IMG/VR virus record: IMGVR_UViG_3300034101_002951
Span: 1 to 43,968 of that record
Reading direction: 5' to 3' (one strand)
Source of the DNA: a virus
DNA: 43,968 bases
The position numbers and the translations under genes are program-made. Below, piece by piece: positions 1 to 25,200 of this stretch (its first letter is position 1; every line of letters starts with the position of its first letter). The notes beneath the pieces are model-generated. The model did no database searches and was not told where the DNA came from. It saw nothing but the letters and a program-made list of their open reading frames with translations.

Positions 1-293
1 CTCCGGGGGGCGGGGGGGAGCCCATGGGCGAACTGGGAAACCGGACTTCCGTGTCATGTATGGCGATTCGGCTGTTCGGATGCGTGTCTCCGTTGAGGGC
101 CTTCCGAGACCGGACTTCGGTGTCCGGTATCCCGAACCCTGATTCCTGGGCCCGGTGTCCGTTCACCTTCCATTCATCTACCATTCATTTGTTGTTGGTA
201 GACACTGGGTGTGGGTCCTGTACACTGTCCTCAGTGACCTAGTCACCCCGGAGCGGCCACCGCCGCCCGGTACAACCTAGAAGGGATGGACCC
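1..293. promoter_or_regulatory. Left-end control region with repeats
   Basis: No convincing gene lies here; a 72-codon frame at 24-242 lacks a ribosome-binding site. A 16-base direct repeat, ACCGGACTTCNGTGTC with one mismatch, sits at 40-55 and 109-124. The second copy also forms a 7-bp hairpin (109-115 with 122-128). CCATTCAT occurs at 170-177 and 181-188, one helical turn apart. GTGAC-CTA-GTCAC at 234-246 is a palindrome just downstream of a promoter-like -10. I infer an early promoter with several operator sites. If the genome is circular, this joins the right end and separates the two divergent arms. Confidence 0.5.
198..226 (+). promoter_or_regulatory. Possible early promoter
   Basis: TACACT at 221-226 is a fair -10 hexamer. 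The -35 at 17-bp spacing is GTAGAC (198-203), which is weak. The palindrome at 234-246 lies near the expected transcription start and could be an operator. A related TACACTGT core occurs in the late-gene inverted repeat at 37711-37732. Confidence 0.35.
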
Positions 294-779
294 ATGGACG
301 CTTTCGTGTCCCGGGTCGATGAGTTCCCTGCGCATCTTCAGGCTGAGCGTGCTGAAGCGGAGCGGATGCTCCGTGAGGCTGGTCTCAACCCTGCGGTTGA
401 GCATTGGATGTCCCTGTACGAGACCACGCCCCTAGTGGCCATGTCTCGTGCGAGGAACGCCGATGGGACAGTGTCGACCCCCATACCCCCGGTAAAGCGC
501 AAGCGGACCCGGAGGATCAATCTGGACAGTGACTACGCACCTTTGTTCTACCCTGTCTACCGAGGGTGGGGCAGCATCGTCACTCGACCCTACCTGTCTC
601 TCATGGTCCGTCGGCGGATTCTCCTGTCGACATGGACCCCGGAGACTGGGGCGTGTCCCGCCGCCGAACAGGCTCACCGCTCGGACCGTGGGCTGGGGCT
701 CACCCAGCCCCTTTCCCGCAAGCAGAAGCGGAACCGGCGGCGCAAGGAGCAGCGGGCCCGGCGGGCCCGGGGGGAGTGA
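294..779 (+). CDS. Basic early protein, unknown function
   Basis: This is the first gene of the rightward arm, 161 residues. AGAAGGGATGGA stands 5' of the ATG. The N-terminal third looks helical and charged. The C-terminal 20 residues are almost all Arg/Lys (KRNRRRK...RARRARG), which suggests nucleic-acid binding. I recognise no domain. A very strong hairpin (766-789) overlaps its stop codon. Coding direction is supported by position and ribosome-binding site; the opposite strand is also open over part of this stretch, so it is less certain than the genes that follow. Confidence 0.6.
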   Translation: MDAFVSRVDEFPAHLQAERAEAERMLREAGLNPAVEHWMSLYETTPLVAMSRARNADGTVSTPIPPVKRKRTRRINLDSDYAPLFYPVYRGWGSIVTRPYLSLMVRRRILLSTWTPETGACPAAEQAHRSDRGLGLTQPLSRKQKRNRRRKEQRARRARGE

Positions 780-789
780 TCCCCCCGGG
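766..789 (+). terminator. Strong hairpin across the stop codon
   Basis: CCCGGGGGG (766-774) pairs perfectly with CCCCCCGGG (781-789) around the loop AGTGAT, which contains the TGA stop of the preceding gene. There is no T-run, so this is terminator-like or an mRNA 3'-end stabiliser rather than a textbook intrinsic terminator. A tandem 9-bp repeat CCCCGGGTT follows (783-800). Confidence 0.5.
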
Positions 790-810
790 TTCCCCGGGTT
801 TCCGCATCTC

Positions 811-832
811 GTTGGACCAGTGCGTGCATGAC
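811..832 (+). promoter_or_regulatory. GTTGGACC-N8-CATGAC motif, copy 1
   Basis: GTTGGACC (811-818) and CATGAC (827-832) are separated by 8 bases. The same arrangement recurs at 3693-3714 and 6499-6520, each upstream of a gene with a start-associated sequence. No sigma-70 -10 box lies at the right distance, so a non-standard promoter or an operator is possible. It overlaps a perfect 13-bp direct repeat, CCAGTGCGTGCAT, at 817-829 and 836-848. Confidence 0.45.
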
Positions 833-873
833 TGGCCAGTGCGTGCATCCCTTCTCGGCCCGTGTGTGGTAGC

Positions 874-994
874 GGGCGCACCAACCACCCAGTGCATCGA
901 GGGCTAGAACCTATTGGAAACAATAGGCAAGCCCCGGTTGGGCTTCATTGATTACTCGATGCACTTTCTCCCTTCCTTCCCGGTTGGTGCGCCC
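874..994 (+). ncRNA. Structured RNA element with three-way junction
   Basis: Four perfect stems nest in 121 bases. P1 is a 13-bp stem, 874-886 with 982-994. P2 is an 11-bp stem, 891-901 with 955-965. Inside P2 are P3, CCTATTG-GAAA-CAATAGG (910-927, a GNRA tetraloop), and P4, AAGCCC-CGGTT-GGGCTT (929-945). P1 and P2 are joined by ACCC on one side and a 16-base pyrimidine-only strand (966-981) on the other. It lies in a 275-base non-coding gap just before the first start-associated-sequence gene, with a promoter-like motif upstream. I cannot match it to a known RNA family. It could be a 5'-UTR switch, a trans-acting small RNA, or a DNA-level structure such as an origin. Confidence 0.7.
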
Positions 995-996
995 AC

Positions 997-1054
997 TTCC
1001 CCATACGGGGAAACGCATAGCGGCTCACGCCGCATGAGACATAGGGAGACAGGC
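997..1054 (+). promoter_or_regulatory. Hairpin leader and start-associated sequence 1
   Basis: TTCCCC-ATAC-GGGGAA (997-1012) is followed by GCGGC-TCAC-GCCGC (1020-1033), then GGGAGACAGGC directly before the ATG at 1055. The small GCGG...CCGC hairpin plus GGAGACAGGC-ATG is repeated before the next four genes. Confidence 0.65.
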
Positions 1055-1570
1055 ATGGCAGAACGACTGAGCCCAGAGTTTGCGGGTTGTTGGATCGACG
1101 GCCACTGGGGGATCTACGGGGCACGCCGCCTCGTGGAGATCGCAGTGTCCCACGGCTACCGACCCCCCCTCAACGATGAGGAACAGCGACTGTTCGACGA
1201 AGCGTGGAACAGGTCGTTCGGAGTCAACGTCGAGGTTCCGCACTTCCTCGTGTGGCAGAACTGCAAGGACTTCGTGCAACGTCAGCACGACTTTCTCGCA
1301 GCGTGTGTCCGCATGGGGACGGGCAGCCACCTCGACCTCGAGCGCGCTCAGGAGTGCATCAAGGCACTCACCTTGCTCACGACAGGTCAACTCGACCCCG
1401 TGCCGGACTCGAGTTTCCGGGAGCAACTGGCAACGGAGCTCATCTACAACCTTTCCGACGAGGCAGAGGAGTGGATGAACGACAACATCGCTCCCGAAGG
1501 CTTCGCGTTCGGATGGCACGACGGCGAGTGGTTCCTCTGGTCCATCAAGGAATGGCAGGACGTCGCCTGA
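1055..1570 (+). CDS. Early protein, unknown function
   Basis: 171 residues. The frame stays open upstream, but the start is placed at 1055 because the repeated GGGAGACAGGC sequence stands directly before this ATG. The N-terminus (MAERLSPEFAGCW) is Trp-rich and the C-terminus acidic and Trp-rich (GWHDGEWFLWSIKEW). It looks like a compact soluble globular protein. No family is recognised. It is the first of five genes that share the hairpin leader. Confidence 0.75.
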   Translation: MAERLSPEFAGCWIDGHWGIYGARRLVEIAVSHGYRPPLNDEEQRLFDEAWNRSFGVNVEVPHFLVWQNCKDFVQRQHDFLAACVRMGTGSHLDLERAQECIKALTLLTTGQLDPVPDSSFREQLATELIYNLSDEAEEWMNDNIAPEGFAFGWHDGEWFLWSIKEWQDVA

Positions 1571-1669
1571 CGTCCTCGCCCCGTGGAGCATCAACCCTCC
1601 ACGGGGCACTAGCCACCAGTCGGTGGTGAACATAGCGGCGCAAGCCGCATGAGACATAGGGAGACAGGC
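1571..1669 (+). promoter_or_regulatory. Hairpin leader with CATCA loop, start-associated sequence 2
   Basis: An 11-bp stem (1578-1588 with 1597-1607) carries the 8-base loop CATCAACC. Next come CCACC-AGTC-GGTGG (1613-1626) and GCGGC-GCAA-GCCGC (1635-1648, a GNRA tetraloop), then GGGAGACAGGC before the ATG at 1670. The first hairpin resembles a terminator without a T-run. Confidence 0.65.
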
Positions 1670-2227
1670 ATGGACATCAACATCCCCTTCACGGACAACC
1701 TGATGGCCGACGTCATCAAGGTGATCGAGGCGGCCGACGCCGGCAACCTCACCACCGTCGTCGGCTGTGACGGCGACGCCGACCTCAAGGTGGTCCCGCC
1801 CGTCGAGGTCCACGCCACCCAGGTGGCGGTGCTCGCTCACGCGTTGTCGTTGACGGCGGCGCGTGCGCAGGCCTCGGAGGAACGCTTCGCGCTCGAGCAG
1901 TCCGCGAAGAACACCGCCTTGCAGAAGAACTCTCTCTTCATCGAGCGGATGGTCGACGCCGTCCGGGAGATGGGGTCCGAGAACGACTTCTGCACGAGGG
2001 GCATGGCGGGCTTCGTGGCTCAGGTCCTCGACATCGGCGAGGAGCAGGCCATGGGGTACTTCCAGCGGGAGTACGAGGCGACGTTCACCGTCACGGTGTA
2101 CTTCACCTGCAACCCCGGCGACGAGCGCGAGATCGACCTCGACCTCGGCTACGCCGACGCAGACGCACCGGAGGCCGGCGACATCAACTCCATCACGTGG
2201 GACCTCAGCGACGTGGTCCCCAACTGA
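1670..2227 (+). CDS. Early protein, unknown function
   Basis: 185 residues; start fixed by the start-associated sequence at 1659-1669. The N-terminal part (ViKVIEAADAGN...) is followed by an Ala-rich helical stretch around residues 50-85 and an acidic C-terminus rich in Asp (DLDLGYADADAPEAGD). No domain is recognised. A possible 18-codon reading frame begins on its stop codon (TGATG at 2225-2229). Confidence 0.75.
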   Translation: MDINIPFTDNLMADVIKVIEAADAGNLTTVVGCDGDADLKVVPPVEVHATQVAVLAHALSLTAARAQASEERFALEQSAKNTALQKNSLFIERMVDAVREMGSENDFCTRGMAGFVAQVLDIGEEQAMGYFQREYEATFTVTVYFTCNPGDEREIDLDLGYADADAPEAGDINSITWDLSDVVPN

Positions 2228-2283
2228 TGGCGGGCGTCACCAGCCAGTTCATCGAAGTGCTGCTCGCAATCCTCGGAGAGTGA
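2227..2283 (+). CDS. Possible 18-residue peptide
   Basis: The ATG overlaps the preceding stop in a TGATG arrangement, which usually marks translational coupling. It encodes MAGVTSQFIEVLLAILGE, with a hydrophobic end. Only the coupling supports it; there is no separate ribosome-binding site. Confidence 0.25.
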   Translation: MAGVTSQFIEVLLAILGE

Positions 2284-2371
2284 GCAGCGGCGCACCGGGG
2301 CATCACACCCCCGGTGCGCACTACCCGTAGCGGAATCCACCGCACGGATGACAACACACAAGGAGACAGGC
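2284..2371 (+). promoter_or_regulatory. Hairpin leader with CATCA loop, start-associated sequence 3
   Basis: An 11-bp perfect stem (2290-2300 with 2309-2319) carries the 8-base loop CATCACAC. GCGG-AATCCA-CCGC (2330-2343) follows, then AAGGAGACAGGC before the ATG at 2372. Stem sequence differs from the 1578-1607 hairpin, but stem length and the first five loop bases are the same. Confidence 0.65.
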
Positions 2372-2746
2372 ATGGCTCTGAACTGGAACGTCACCAACGT
2401 GGCCGACTGGGAGCAACTCCAGAGTGACGATCACGAGTACGTCGTGACCGAGTGCGTCGTCTGGTTGACGATGGCAGTCGGATTGCGGGGCATCACGGAG
2501 TCGAACCTCGACGAGTTCACCCGGCGGGCCGCGCTGGTGCAGCACCTCAGCGGCGCATACATGCAGAAGGACGGTCACCCGTACTTCCTCCACCGCGAGC
2601 ACTTCGAGCGTCGCGTGGGACTCTCGACCAACGTCGGCGACGAGTCCCGAGCGGCGTGGGTCAAGCGGTGGACGAAGGACGACGAACTGGACCGACTCGA
2701 CCGGCGCCACTACCGCGACAACCTGGACCTGGACGCGGTCACCTGA
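2372..2746 (+). CDS. Early protein, unknown function
   Basis: 124 residues, started at 2372 by the AAGGAGACAGGC sequence. The protein is Trp-rich at its N-terminus (LNWNVTNVADWEQL) and strongly charged at its C-terminus (WTKDDELDRLDRRHYRDNLDLD). No family is recognised. It ends 5 bases before a 12-bp hairpin that separates it from the next gene. Confidence 0.75.
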   Translation: MALNWNVTNVADWEQLQSDDHEYVVTECVVWLTMAVGLRGITESNLDEFTRRAALVQHLSGAYMQKDGHPYFLHREHFERRVGLSTNVGDESRAAWVKRWTKDDELDRLDRRHYRDNLDLDAVT

Positions 2747-2828
2747 CCGCCGCCTGTCACGACGTCGTGTCGTGACAGGCACTGTTCGCAGCGGACTCCA
2801 CCGCGCGACTGACATAAAGGAGACAGGC
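2747..2828 (+). promoter_or_regulatory. Hairpin leader, start-associated sequence 4
   Basis: A 12-bp perfect stem (2752-2763 with 2769-2780) has the 5-base loop GTCGT. GCGG-ACTCCA-CCGC lies at 2791-2804, almost the same as the leader-3 hairpin with one loop change, then AAAGGAGACAGGC before the ATG at 2829. Confidence 0.6.
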
Positions 2829-3605
2829 ATGGACCAGCGAACGGCTGAGGTTGTCGCAACCATGCTGACCGAGAACACCGGGCGCCATATGTTGGATTCC
2901 GGTGGGGCATACGGTCGGCACTGGGAGCGCAATCAAGGCATCGACGTTCAGGACTGGATCAACAGTTCCACCGCAACGTGGGGATGGAAGGGCGAGTACT
3001 ACACGCTCAACCTGTTCCACTGGTTGGTGGAGCGGTTGGAGTACGCGCCTGATCTGGACGCAGAACTCGACAAGTTCGCAGCGAGCCGCCCCGACGACGG
3101 GTGGCTCGACATCATGGACGAGTTCTGTGAACAGACATGGCCCGAACTCTCCCGTGAGTGCATCAACTCGTACAACAACGAGGAGGCACTCAGTCAGGTC
3201 ATCCAGTTCACCGGGGTGTTCGACCACGACTACCCCGACTACCAGTACGTGCTGTTGCAGATCCATGGCGGCTGCGACGTCCGAGGCGGCTACACCGCGC
3301 CGAGGGTGTTCGAGGTCGTCGGCGACGAGTGCTGCATGTACGACTTCATGTCAGCGTCCTTCCACTGCGACGGTTTCGACCCACCGCAGTTCGAGGCGCT
3401 GCCCGGGTTCCCCACTCCGACACGCACCCAGCATCACTGGTACGTGACCGGCGGCGGCGATCTCATCGACGAGTACGGCTCCTACTTCGAGTCGACCTGG
3501 AAGTTCCTCAACGAGCAGGACATCTGGGACGAGGACGCCGACCGCGTCCTCTGCCCTGAGTGCCTCTCGTCGGGCCACAAGACGACGCTCCACGTGAGCG
3601 CCTAG
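2829..3605 (+). CDS. Conserved-looking phage protein, unknown function
   Basis: 258 residues, the largest of the small-gene block; start at 2829 from the start-associated sequence. The N-terminal stretch TGRHMLDSGGAYGRHWERN has the look of a conserved motif that I associate with hypothetical phage proteins, but I cannot verify this. It is followed by an aromatic and acidic middle, GGCDVRGGYTAPRVF and CCMYD near the centre, and a C-terminal CPECL pair that may bind zinc. No catalytic signature is clear. Confidence 0.8.
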   Translation: MDQRTAEVVATMLTENTGRHMLDSGGAYGRHWERNQGIDVQDWINSSTATWGWKGEYYTLNLFHWLVERLEYAPDLDAELDKFAASRPDDGWLDIMDEFCEQTWPELSRECINSYNNEEALSQVIQFTGVFDHDYPDYQYVLLQIHGGCDVRGGYTAPRVFEVVGDECCMYDFMSASFHCDGFDPPQFEALPGFPTPTRTQHHWYVTGGGDLIDEYGSYFESTWKFLNEQDIWDEDADRVLCPECLSSGHKTTLHVSA

Positions 3606-3744
3606 ATCGCCATGCCTGCGAGGGGGCAGCGCAACTCCGGTTGTGCTGCCCCTCCGCTGGCACAGGCAGCGGACGAGTTGTTTCGGCAACTCGTTGGACC
3701 ATCACACACATGACGGCTAACGCCGCATGGAACAGGAGACAGGC
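3606..3744 (+). promoter_or_regulatory. Tandem hairpins, motif copy 2, start-associated sequence 5
   Basis: Three hairpins stand almost end to end. The first (3623-3635 with 3640-3652) has 13 pairs and a UNCG-type tetraloop TCCG. The second is TCCGCTG with CAGCGGA (3653-3673). The third is ACGAGTTG with CAACTCGT (3673-3694) around TTTCGG. GTTGGACC-N8-CATGAC follows (3693-3714), then CGGC-TAAC-GCCG (3714-3725) and CAGGAGACAGGC before the ATG at 3745. Confidence 0.6.
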
Positions 3745-4032
3745 ATGGACGAACTGCGCGGGCCTCACCACGTGTGGAGAGTGCTCAGCCAGCCCGACCC
3801 GTTCCCCGAGTCGCTGGAGTTCCGGTGGCACGGAGGACAGGGCGTGTCCGTCTACAAGCAGTTGGTCGACTACGACACCCCGGGTGACCCCGAGGTGGCG
3901 CAGGAGATCGACTACTTCACGATCGGCACGCCACTGTGGGAGTTGCTGACCCTCGAGGAGAAGTTGCTCGAGGTCGAACGCTCCATCAGGTCGCTGCTCG
4001 AGGAGCGTGGCTTGCTGTGGGAGGACGCATGA
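3745..4032 (+). CDS. Small acidic early protein, unknown
   Basis: 95 residues; start at 3745 set by the start-associated sequence. The C-terminal half is a predicted amphipathic helix (TLEEKLLEVERSIRSLLEERG) that could dimerise. Its stop overlaps the next ATG (ATGA), so it heads a coupled run of small genes. Confidence 0.75.
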   Translation: MDELRGPHHVWRVLSQPDPFPESLEFRWHGGQGVSVYKQLVDYDTPGDPEVAQEIDYFTIGTPLWELLTLEEKLLEVERSIRSLLEERGLLWEDA

Positions 4033-4307
4033 CCGACGACACACACATCGTGTGCGAAGTCGAGACGCACGTCGTCGTTTCGATCCCCGTCACCATCTGG
4101 TGGCACCGCACCGACGGCTACGTCATCGACTTCGGCGATCCCCAGGAGGAAGTCGAGAACCCCTTCCCCAGCGACGGGGCGGAGATCTACGACCGAGAGA
4201 CCTTCGACTGGTTGACCCCCAACCAGTTGTCGGACAACTACGACGTCCCCGTGGACGTCGCGGTCAACGCAGCGATTGGGCCTCGGCTCAACATCACCAA
4301 GGAGTGA
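4029..4307 (+). CDS. Small acidic early protein, unknown
   Basis: 92 residues, very acidic (about a fifth Asp/Glu). The first third is beta-like (HIVCEVETHVVVSIPVTIWW). The ATG overlaps the previous stop by four bases. Strong acidity and early location would fit a host-interaction protein or DNA mimic, but that is only a guess. Confidence 0.75.
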   Translation: MTDDTHIVCEVETHVVVSIPVTIWWHRTDGYVIDFGDPQEEVENPFPSDGAEIYDRETFDWLTPNQLSDNYDVPVDVAVNAAIGPRLNITKE

Positions 4308-6482: not shown

Positions 6483-6553
6483 GCGTATCGGCAACTGGTT
6501 GGACCCAACACGTACATGACGCCATCACGCGCGTCGAGAAGGAGACAGGCACC
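6483..6553 (+). promoter_or_regulatory. Motif copy 3, CATCA-loop hairpin, start-associated sequence
   Basis: GTTGGACC (6498-6505) and CATGAC (6515-6520) repeat the motif, here with a 9-base spacer. GACGC-CATCACGC-GCGTC (6518-6535) is a third hairpin with an 8-base CATCA loop. GAAGGAGACAGGCACC precedes the ATG at 6554. Confidence 0.6.
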
Positions 6554-22283: not shown

Positions 22284-25200
22284 CAGGCCCCCGCAAGTGC
22301 TCCCTGTCGGTACTGGGCGAGCATCTCCTCGAGGCCGGGGGTGCTACTGCTGTTCGTCGATCCCATCATCGACTGCTGGAGGCTCGAAGCCGCCGAGTTG
22401 AAGTAGCCGGCCTGCTTCATCAGTGCCTGATACATCGGGCTCAAGCCCTGAGCAGTGATGTAGTTGGTGGCATCGCGTGAAGCGGTGTAGCGGGCGTAGT
22501 CCGCTGCCTGCCGCGCGAAGGGCGCCATCGCCGGGTCGTTGGCAGCCACCTGGTCGTAGCCGGCGGCCACGTTGTCGGCGTCGCGGAGCATCTGATTCGC
22601 GTAGGGCTGAGCCATCGCTCCGATCTGCGCCTGGATCGCCAGGGCCAGGGCCTCCTGCTCCTCAGGGGAGGTTCCGTCCCCTGGGGTGGTGAGCTCGGAG
22701 TACTTGCCCATCACGCTCTGACGGAACGCATCCGTGAGCTGCTGCTTGAACGCGTCCGGGTCGGTTGCGCTGTCAGCGAACCCCAGCATGTCGTTGTACT
22801 GCCGGAGGTACCCGTCGAGATCGTCGCGCGGAACCCCAGCGCGCAGGCCGGAGTTGTAGATGTCCTGGACGAGGGTTCCGTCGTCGGCCTGGGAGCCGTC
22901 CCCGAGGACCCCGACACGCTCGAGTCCTTCGTGGCCGAGACCGATGGCGGCACCAGCGAGGGCGCCCCACGGACCGAAGCCGGCTCCAGCGCCACCCCAC
23001 CTGAGCATCTTCGAGGCGGCGTCGTTCGCGAACGAGTCCTTGCCTCCGAGCCAGTCGGATTCGTCGAGGGCGCCAGCCGCAAAGCTGCCTACGGCACCAC
23101 CCGCGAGACCGACCCCAATGTTGGTGCCAATCGGGAACTTTCGACCGAGCTGGCTGAGACCCGGAACGCGACTGTTGCCCCAAAGCGCACCCTGGCCGAA
23201 CAGAGCGTTCTTGGCCTGGCTCAGGAGCCCGCGCTTCGGGGTGGTCGGCGAGTAGTCGCCGGCCCAGCTCCCTCCCGCCTGAGCCATCTGGTTGAACAGC
23301 GGCTCGACGTACCTGGCGTTACTGGCCGACGGGAGAAGCTCGCCATTGGCGGTCGGACCCCTGAAGATCGGACCCACCGGAGGTGGGGCGACCGGAGGTG
23401 GGGCGACCGGCGGCGGCGTGGGGTTGTAGGGGGGCGGGGTCGGCCGGTACGGGGGTGGAGTTGGTCGGTAGGGAGGGGGAGTTGGTCGGTACGGGGGTGG
23501 GGTCGGTCGGTACGGAGGGGGCGTGGGGTTGTAGGGGGGTGGGGTCAGCGGGGACGCTGGCGGCTCGAACGGCGACCACGTACCAGGTGAGGTCCCTGGC
23601 GGGGTACGCCCCTGCTCCACTCCGAGACGGATGGGATCAGGCGCAGCGCCGTCGGACGGCTGCCAAGTGCGGTTGAAGCGTTCCGGGGGCACGGTGCTGC
23701 CTCCGGGGAACGGCTCGCCACCACCCATGCGGGTCGGGCCCATGTCCATCGCATCGCCGGCCTCGAAGCCGTACCCACGCCGACCCGCCAACCGGGCCCG
23801 GGTGTTGGGGCCCAGGACGTCACCGCTCGGGTACACGCCAGCGTTGCGGAGGCGTTCGGCGGCGTAGAACGGGTCGGCAGCCAGGACGCGACCGCCGGGC
23901 CCGTCGTTGGCGAAGAACCTGGCCCGCTCGACGGGGGTTGCGCGGTTCTGCGTCAGCCAGTCGTTGAGGAACTGACGGGTGTCCACACCCGGCGGGACCG
24001 GCGGCGGGTTGTTGAACCAGAACGGGTTCGCCCCTGCGGGACGAGTGGCGTTGGTGGGGGGCATGACTGGGCCTCCTGTCGGGCGGTCAGGCGGGGACTC
24101 GAAGATCGTCTGTCTGCCGAGCACTCCGGGCAGCGGGGCGCCCATGGCGGTGCGGGCCCCACCCATGACCTGTTCGTTGCCGGCAAGCACCTGGTCGATG
24201 AGATCCAGGGAGTCGGTGGGTGCGGGCCCGCCCCCCTCGCCACCACCCATGAACTTGAACAGGGTTTCGGCGAAGTCGTTGTGCTGGGGGATCTTCGGGT
24301 TCAGAGGGATGTTCAGGTCCCGTGCCGCCTCGGCCATGATGCGGGTTCGCGGGTCGACTCCGGTCTCGAGACGCTCGAGTTCGGCGCTGGACTGAAGGTC
24401 CTTGACCAGACTCTCGAATACCTGGGCTGACTCACTGTCGTAGTAGGGGGTGACCCGATCGAAATACGAGTCGTAGATGCTGTTGACGTCCCTGGAGCCA
24501 CGCCAGTAATCACGCGCGTCAATGGCTGACGGGTCATTCCGGCTGAGAAATCCAGAAATGTCGTCCCCGCGATCCCCGAACCCCACGATCCCGTAGGAGT
24601 CGGGGAGTTCGCCTCCGCGAGGAATCAGCTCCTCGTTCAGGTACCGCCATGGGTTCGCGTCCATTGAGGGTTGCAGCCGGAGATCTTCCGCGTAAAGCTC
24701 CGGGTCGGACAGCAACCTTTCGATCGCAGCGAGTTCCTTGATGTCCTGGGTCTTGGTGATGCCAAGGGCGGTTCGTTGCGGGTCAACAGGCCAGATCGGT
24801 GAGTTGATCTTTCTGGCCAACGCTTCTTCGGCGTAGTCATTGAAAAGCTCTTGATCTATGGTCGTTTCCAGTGAGCGTTCGGCTGGGCTCTGCCGGCCGC
24901 CGACTGCGGGCCACCCGCCGGTCGTGCCCCCGTCGTAGAGGGTCCCGCCCTCTAGCCGATAAGCGTCCCACGCTTCGTTACCCGCCAGCCATGCCCTGCC
25001 CGCATCCTCATCCAGTTCTGGCGTGGTCGATGCGAACAACTGATCCAGCACGCCGCCCTTGGCCTGCTTCAGCAGCGATCGGTCGATCTCATCCAACCGG
25101 CGAAGCAGATCGTCACCGGCCTTTCGGCTGGCCCGATTGGGGAGCGGCATGGGGTCGTCGCCAACCGCCCCACGCTGGTTCCGGTCGTTCTTCCAGCGGT

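Follow-up and report, generated by a model that had tools for sequence, protein, structure and literature searches.

A candidate intercistronic punctuation hairpin with a variable three-way-junction module in the early region of an uncultured phage

Introduction

The virus record IMGVR_UViG_3300034101_002951, analysed here over its whole length of 43,968 nucleotides (the window), carries between two early genes a gap at 780-1054 whose transcript could fold into nested stems. An initial annotation, made from the sequence alone, described positions 874-994 as a 121-nt structured RNA with a three-way junction that fits no RNA family, and suggested that it could be a new cis-regulatory leader or a phage small RNA. 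The locus thus raises the question of what this element is: whether its fold exceeds chance, whether it forms one unit, and what it might do for the genes on either side. We find that gene-separating hairpins form a series to which the element belongs, and that the junction is missing from a close relative that retains the stem around it.

Results

The nested perfect stems of 13 bp (874-886/982-994) and 11 bp (891-901/955-965), and the two hairpins that they enclose, one of them capped by a GAAA tetraloop (910-916/921-927 and 929-934/940-945), are present in the sequence exactly as annotated, together with the full count of 37 Watson-Crick pairs. Unconstrained folding with RNAfold recovered all four stems and extended the outer one to 859-1009, for 49 pairs overall; the 13-bp stem is part of this larger outer hairpin. 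The segment 860-1010 folds at -76.9 kcal/mol, against a dinucleotide-shuffle mean of -48.0 +/- 3.7 (z -7.8, with 0 of 200 shuffles as low), and refolding with slightly different ends gave z -7.3 and 0/500 shuffles. Perfect 13-bp inverted repeats within 130 nt occur at two places in the genome, and at none in 18 of 20 whole-genome Markov shuffles. These data confirm that the fold lies beyond chance.

Searches with the flanking proteins returned one contig bearing the same gene pair, IMG/VR 3300042113_000216 (L006, L010 and L018-L020; hereafter the relative), which is 84-97% identical to the record in DNA over the aligned stretches. The 25 pairs of the outer stem comprise 22 that are identical in the relative, 3 that are altered and 0 that are broken: G864-U1004 is G-C in the relative, G876-C992 is G-U, and U865-A1003 is A-U. 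The four substitutions thus make up one double and two one-sided changes, all pair-preserving, with P=0.0045 for retained pairing under a null that reshuffles the observed substitutions at random over the paired bases and ignores mutational context. The initial annotation had named, as evidence that would count against it, homologues that keep the sequence while losing the pairing; the outer stem shows no such loss, and no homologue carries the inner part.

That inner part is where the two genomes differ. The relative lacks the entire inner module (the 11-bp stem and both hairpins) and has a plain 20-nt loop instead, and its shorter hairpin still folds well below shuffles (z -6.6). Removal of 891-965 from the record leaves ACCCTTCTCCCTTCCTTCCC, which is equal in length to the relative's AACCCTCTCCCTTCCTCCCC and differs from it at three positions; an alternative gap placement, beginning after 887, fits equally well, and only one placement ends exactly at the stem ends. 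Because the relative keeps the outer stem without the inner module, the comparison points to the long hairpin as the conserved unit and to the three-way junction as variable cargo in its loop. What survives of the annotated 121-nt RNA is a structured plus-strand element whose outer stem covaries in the relative; the notion of a single unit finds no support, since the relative has no inner junction.

A scan for perfect hairpins placed GC-rich hairpins in the early gaps at 766-789 (within 757-798), 1578-1607, 2290-2319, 2752-2780 and 3673-3694. Stems of at least 10 bp occupy 10 stem/loop registers genome-wide, several of which belong to one hairpin, mostly in the first 2.8 kb, compared with 0-3 in ten Markov shuffles. 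The element shares a 3′ signature with its sisters: in both genomes ACT comes directly after the outer stem and after three sister hairpins, whose 3′ ends are at 1607, 2319 and 2780, and in the same four successive gaps ACT is followed by a small GCGG...CCGC-type stem and then by GGAGACAGGC abutting the ATG. The 3′ flank at this site reads ACTTCCCC, the small hairpin and GGAGACAGGCATG are common to the gaps, and the sister hairpins mostly start no more than about 12 nt from a stop codon. Seven hairpins pooled hold 11 substitutions, with 1 broken pair (loop-closing) and 3 double changes (P=0.00024), and ACT has a frequency of ~0.010-0.016; both the signature and the pooling were chosen post hoc, so that these numbers describe the pattern rather than test it. 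Among the one-sided changes, 4/5 are G-U compatible on the plus strand, and plus-strand RNA is therefore favoured over minus-strand RNA or a DNA cruciform.

Table 1. Coordinates of the element, its parts and its neighbours in the record.
Feature	Position	Strand	Details
Candidate early promoter, sigma-70-like match	199..226	+	TAGACA-16-TACACT, from consensus scan
Upstream early gene	294..779	+	161-aa open reading frame (ORF); no family match; relative's homologue 83% best-segment identity
Terminator-like GC-rich hairpin	757..798	+	Overlaps stop codon; 19-nt arms, 84% complementary, 4-nt loop; from repeat search
Two CCAGTGCGTGCAT copies	817-829, 836-848	unstranded	19 bp apart; unchanged in relative
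Outer hairpin	859..1009	+	Arms 859-886/982-1009, 25 pairs, three 1x1 mismatches
Inner module	891..965	+	75 nt; 11-bp stem 891-901/955-965 closes three-way junction; absent from relative
Inner hairpin A	910..927	+	CCTATTG-GAAA-CAATAGG; 7 bp, GAAA loop 917-920
Inner hairpin B	929..945	+	AAGCCC-CGGTT-GGGCTT; 6 bp
ACT triplet	995..997	+	Directly 3′ of 13-bp stem
Small hairpin GCGGC-TCAC-GCCGC	1020..1033	+	Upstream of ribosome-binding site; similar ones in next gaps
Repeated start-associated sequence GGGAGACAGGC	1044..1054	+	Shine-Dalgarno-like GGAG; abuts ATG
Downstream early gene	1055..1570	+	171-aa product without family match; other phage contigs hold distant homologues
Sister intercistronic hairpin	1578..1607	+	11 bp; one GC to GU change in relative
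Sister intercistronic hairpin	2290..2319	+	11 bp; GCGCACC base common to outer stem
Sister intercistronic hairpin	2752..2780	+	12 bp; in relative TA to CG double change, CG to TG, one loop-closing pair broken
Fifth-gap intercistronic hairpin	3618..3656	+	16 pairs; second hairpin 3672-3695 after it; without ACT signature

As annotated, the gap is non-coding, because the start at 1055 comes with a Shine-Dalgarno-like sequence of its own and the L007 and L009 homologues start at about the same place. Coding across the gap was rejected on these grounds and because the in-frame TTG at 914 sits within the variable segment that is absent from the relative. PHROGs and Pfam searches with the 161-aa upstream product were empty, a named-phage protein search contained no homologue of either flanking gene, and a bacterial-genome protein search with the downstream gene likewise returned none. 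The candidate promoter is the sole sigma-70-like match in a consensus scan of 1-4000 (chance expectation 0.5), and its -10 reads TAGAGT in the relative instead of TACACT.

Just upstream of the element, the stretch 722-858 is strongly conserved, differing from the relative at 2/137 sites versus 72/428 in the upstream gene; with its tandem CCAGTGCGTGCAT, it is possibly an operator or promoter region or else a recent recombination tract. A separate segment of 20-35 nt, GTTTCsGCAwCTCGTTGGACCA...CATGAC, recurs in three early gaps (798-832, 3680-3714 and 6485-6518).

No Rfam 15 covariance model matched anywhere in the record at curated score, and at E 10 the best sub-threshold matches in 780-1060 have E of at least 1.8, in agreement with the annotation's failure to name a family. 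The three-way junction bears some likeness to a hammerhead ribozyme in the type II arrangement, its joining strands (UUGAUUA, GAA, C) standing superficially in the cyclic order of the core. Set against the core CUGANGA ... GAA and the A-U pair before the cleavage site, however, the junction strands CAUUGAUUA, GGCUAGAA and C lack C3, G8 and the 15.1-16.1 pair and have five extra bases before GAA, and Rfam gave no hammerhead match even at E 10; this identity was rejected. We also discarded the idea that ATAGGGAGA is a promoter for a phage RNA polymerase: ATAGG is not preserved across the remaining copies, and the scanned proteins included none recognisable as a single-subunit polymerase.

The element had no real match in collections of phage and plasmid DNA. 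A wide outer-stem pattern scan found nothing, and the narrow pattern matched the relative and L038, the latter match being dismissed since it falls within overlapping ORFs of an unrelated 97-kb contig. The inner-stem pattern matched 1 phage contig and 14 bacterial contigs, all unrelated and with interiors unlike the module. Two further contigs belonging to this phage, L039 and L040, terminate at the right end of the genome without covering the element, and none of the twelve best terminase-search records has a match to the downstream gene. The cassette of hairpin and ribosome-binding site was not seen in G010, a terminase record with a helicase homologue. Slightly upstream of its helicase gene this distant relative has a hairpin whose 23-bp stem is perfect and whose loop is A-rich (L120, reverse complement 3997-4050).

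Discussion

We put at about even odds (roughly 50%) the reading that 859-1009 is an intercistronic punctuation hairpin of an early polycistronic mRNA, as one of the gene-separating series. From the sequence we infer a promoter, transcription and a punctuation function that would work as follows. Host RNA polymerase would start near 199-226 and transcribe rightwards, and the transcript of each gap would fold into a stable hairpin, with a small hairpin next and then a strong ribosome-binding site. The 859-1009 hairpin would act in cis, protecting or creating the 3′ end of the upstream message and isolating the start site of the downstream gene, while the inner three-way-junction module would be an extra structured segment of the loop, dispensable for the outer hairpin. 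The possible routes are an exonuclease block, cutting by a double-strand-specific nuclease (e.g. RNase III) or partial termination, among which sequence alone cannot choose. In phage T7, the RNase III processing sites of the early mRNA are hairpins between genes; no sequence relation to these is to be expected, and most of the sister hairpins are shorter than typical substrates, whereas the 859-1009 stem, with 28-nt arms and 25 pairs, would be long enough for a candidate RNase III site.

Several observations weigh against punctuation. The hairpin at 757-798, which overlaps the stop codon, already lies in the gap, so that the element is not the sole punctuation mark there; the sister hairpins measure 11-16 bp, which is short for a substrate of RNase III; a U-tract is absent after the hairpin; and the region is covered by two genomes only, which gives a single double change in the outer stem.

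The absence of a U-tract also bears on the possibility that the cluster formed by 757-798 and 859-1009 is a transcription terminator or attenuator, ending most early transcription after the first gene and leaving the downstream genes to read-through or antitermination. No canonical intrinsic terminator (GC-rich stem plus U-tract) was called on the plus strand at 859-1009. U-less 'I-shaped' terminators at most 50 bp from stop codons have been described in mycobacteria, though this is disputed (PMC12288462), and hairpin clusters have been reported and proposed as termination units (PMC8355165); the GC-rich hairpins just past the stop codons here, lacking a U-tract, resemble both. Yet that precedent is mycobacterial and the host here is not known to be a mycobacterium, and the same source lists a work (reference 137) whose title has the mycobacterial polymerase needing a U-tract (PMC12288462). 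The hairpins here differ further in recurring in successive gaps of one apparent operon, where a full stop in each gap would require a promoter per gene and 1-4000 has only one promoter-like site. We consider termination possible, if unlikely. A discrete small RNA, in which the hairpin builds up as a 151-nt RNA that acts in trans and arises from its own promoter or by processing, would account for the exceptional stability of the fold and for a nearly unchanged 722-858, as expected of a promoter or operator. No sigma-70-like promoter was found in 780-860, however, and the inner module, the likeliest target- or ligand-binding part, is absent from the relative. Because no promoter of its own was found, the second of the two roles first proposed, a separate small RNA, is improbable, and the first, in the form of a cis-acting element of the early mRNA, is the more likely. 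Finally, perfect inverted repeats are found beside tandem 13-bp repeats close to the left end of the genome, an arrangement that a DNA element such as a cruciform or a replication or packaging signal might also have. We regard such a DNA element as very improbable, given that 864/1004 in the record and 876/992 in the relative are G-U on the plus strand, a wobble pair in RNA but a mismatch in DNA, and that the positions of the sister hairpins follow those of the gene gaps and ribosome-binding sites.

Whichever function the outer hairpin has, the origin of the inner module is a separate matter. With 24 pairs, the module is structured independently, and it may be bounded by its 11-bp arms. An inverted-repeat-bounded insertion, that is, a mobile cassette entering a pre-existing hairpin loop, concerns origin only and is compatible with the other readings; excising 891-965 from end to end of the inverted repeat restores a 20-nt loop of the relative's length with 3 substitutions. 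Against this, the equally good gap placement misses the repeat ends, no target-site duplication was found at the module junctions, and neither the record and the relative nor exact-arm scans of viral contigs, phage records and bacterial genomes yielded a second copy. The module thus shows neither extra copies nor a target-site duplication, either of which would mark an inverted-repeat mobile element, and its mobility is unsupported because no second copy turned up in the collections scanned. Gain and loss are, moreover, indistinguishable from two genomes, and we hold the cassette to be rather unlikely; the difference may also stem from an assembly chimera at 888-965. T4-type phages are said (Arbiol and colleagues, 2010, cited in PMC4177764) to shuffle promoter-stem-loop cassettes, as mobile regulatory units, between genes. 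A gap that holds a stem-loop module in one genome and lacks it in another recalls these, but the inner module has neither a recognised promoter nor a second copy.

It is also conceivable, though quite doubtful, that this phage lineage gained the inner module, by clean insertion into the loop of the intercistronic hairpin, as a separable RNA domain with a regulatory role, one that binds a protein or a ligand or acts on RNA polymerase as an antiterminator; if so, it would represent a modular way of adding control to an existing mRNA punctuation element. The 9-nt repeat CCCGGTTGG occurs at 933-941, in hairpin B, and at 979-987, at the outer 3′ arm, and in prefix folding, which considers thermodynamics only, the nascent RNA can transiently pair the outer 5′ arm (CCAACC, 881-886) with hairpin B through it until the final fold prevails. 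Such alternative pairing could act as a kinetic switch.

The layout of the gaps resembles that of the SAS/ESAS elements of Cluster K mycobacteriophages, short repeats that abut the start codons of non-structural genes, about half of them with an inverted repeat just upstream (PMC3203893). The likeness of a start-associated repeat with a nearby inverted repeat is one of layout, not sequence: SAS is the 13-bp GGGATAGGAGCCC, accompanied by 17-bp imperfect inverted repeats (PMC3203893), whereas the repeat here is GGAGACAGGC, with a small stem of 4-5 bp and a separate large hairpin, and by that definition the gaps are not members.

Intercistronic hairpins in phage mRNAs are of an already known kind, and as a standalone finding with a putative function this one is modest. 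If the punctuation reading is true, an uncultured phage lineage would punctuate its early mRNA with a repeated cassette of hairpin, small hairpin and ribosome-binding site, and would tolerate or exploit a whole second RNA fold within the loop of one such hairpin, making it a compact natural system for studying the gain of structured modules in phage mRNAs.

The record (1 to 43968) appears to span an entire genome that has physical cohesive ends, because L039 and L040 (found in the terminase search, terminase 100% identical) end exactly at its final base and the relative's contig continues across the joint with ~9 additional bases, TGCGCCCCC. Large-terminase, portal and helicase genes are recognisable; the early region, which encodes Cas4-like exonuclease, Sak4-like and ERCC4-HHH proteins, runs rightwards from the left end, and the structural genes point leftwards, starting at the right end. 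The first 8 kb are nearly without DNA matches apart from one site in the gene at 2829-3605, where the 73-bp stretch 2867-2939 is 84-88% identical to mycobacteriophage genes (e.g. Smeadley and Fredward) and 2861-2945 has an 80% match in an Erythrobacter phage, which suggests a very conserved short protein segment. Elsewhere, a 1650-aa minus-strand gene contains a tandem repeat of 21-nt units at 23408-23563.
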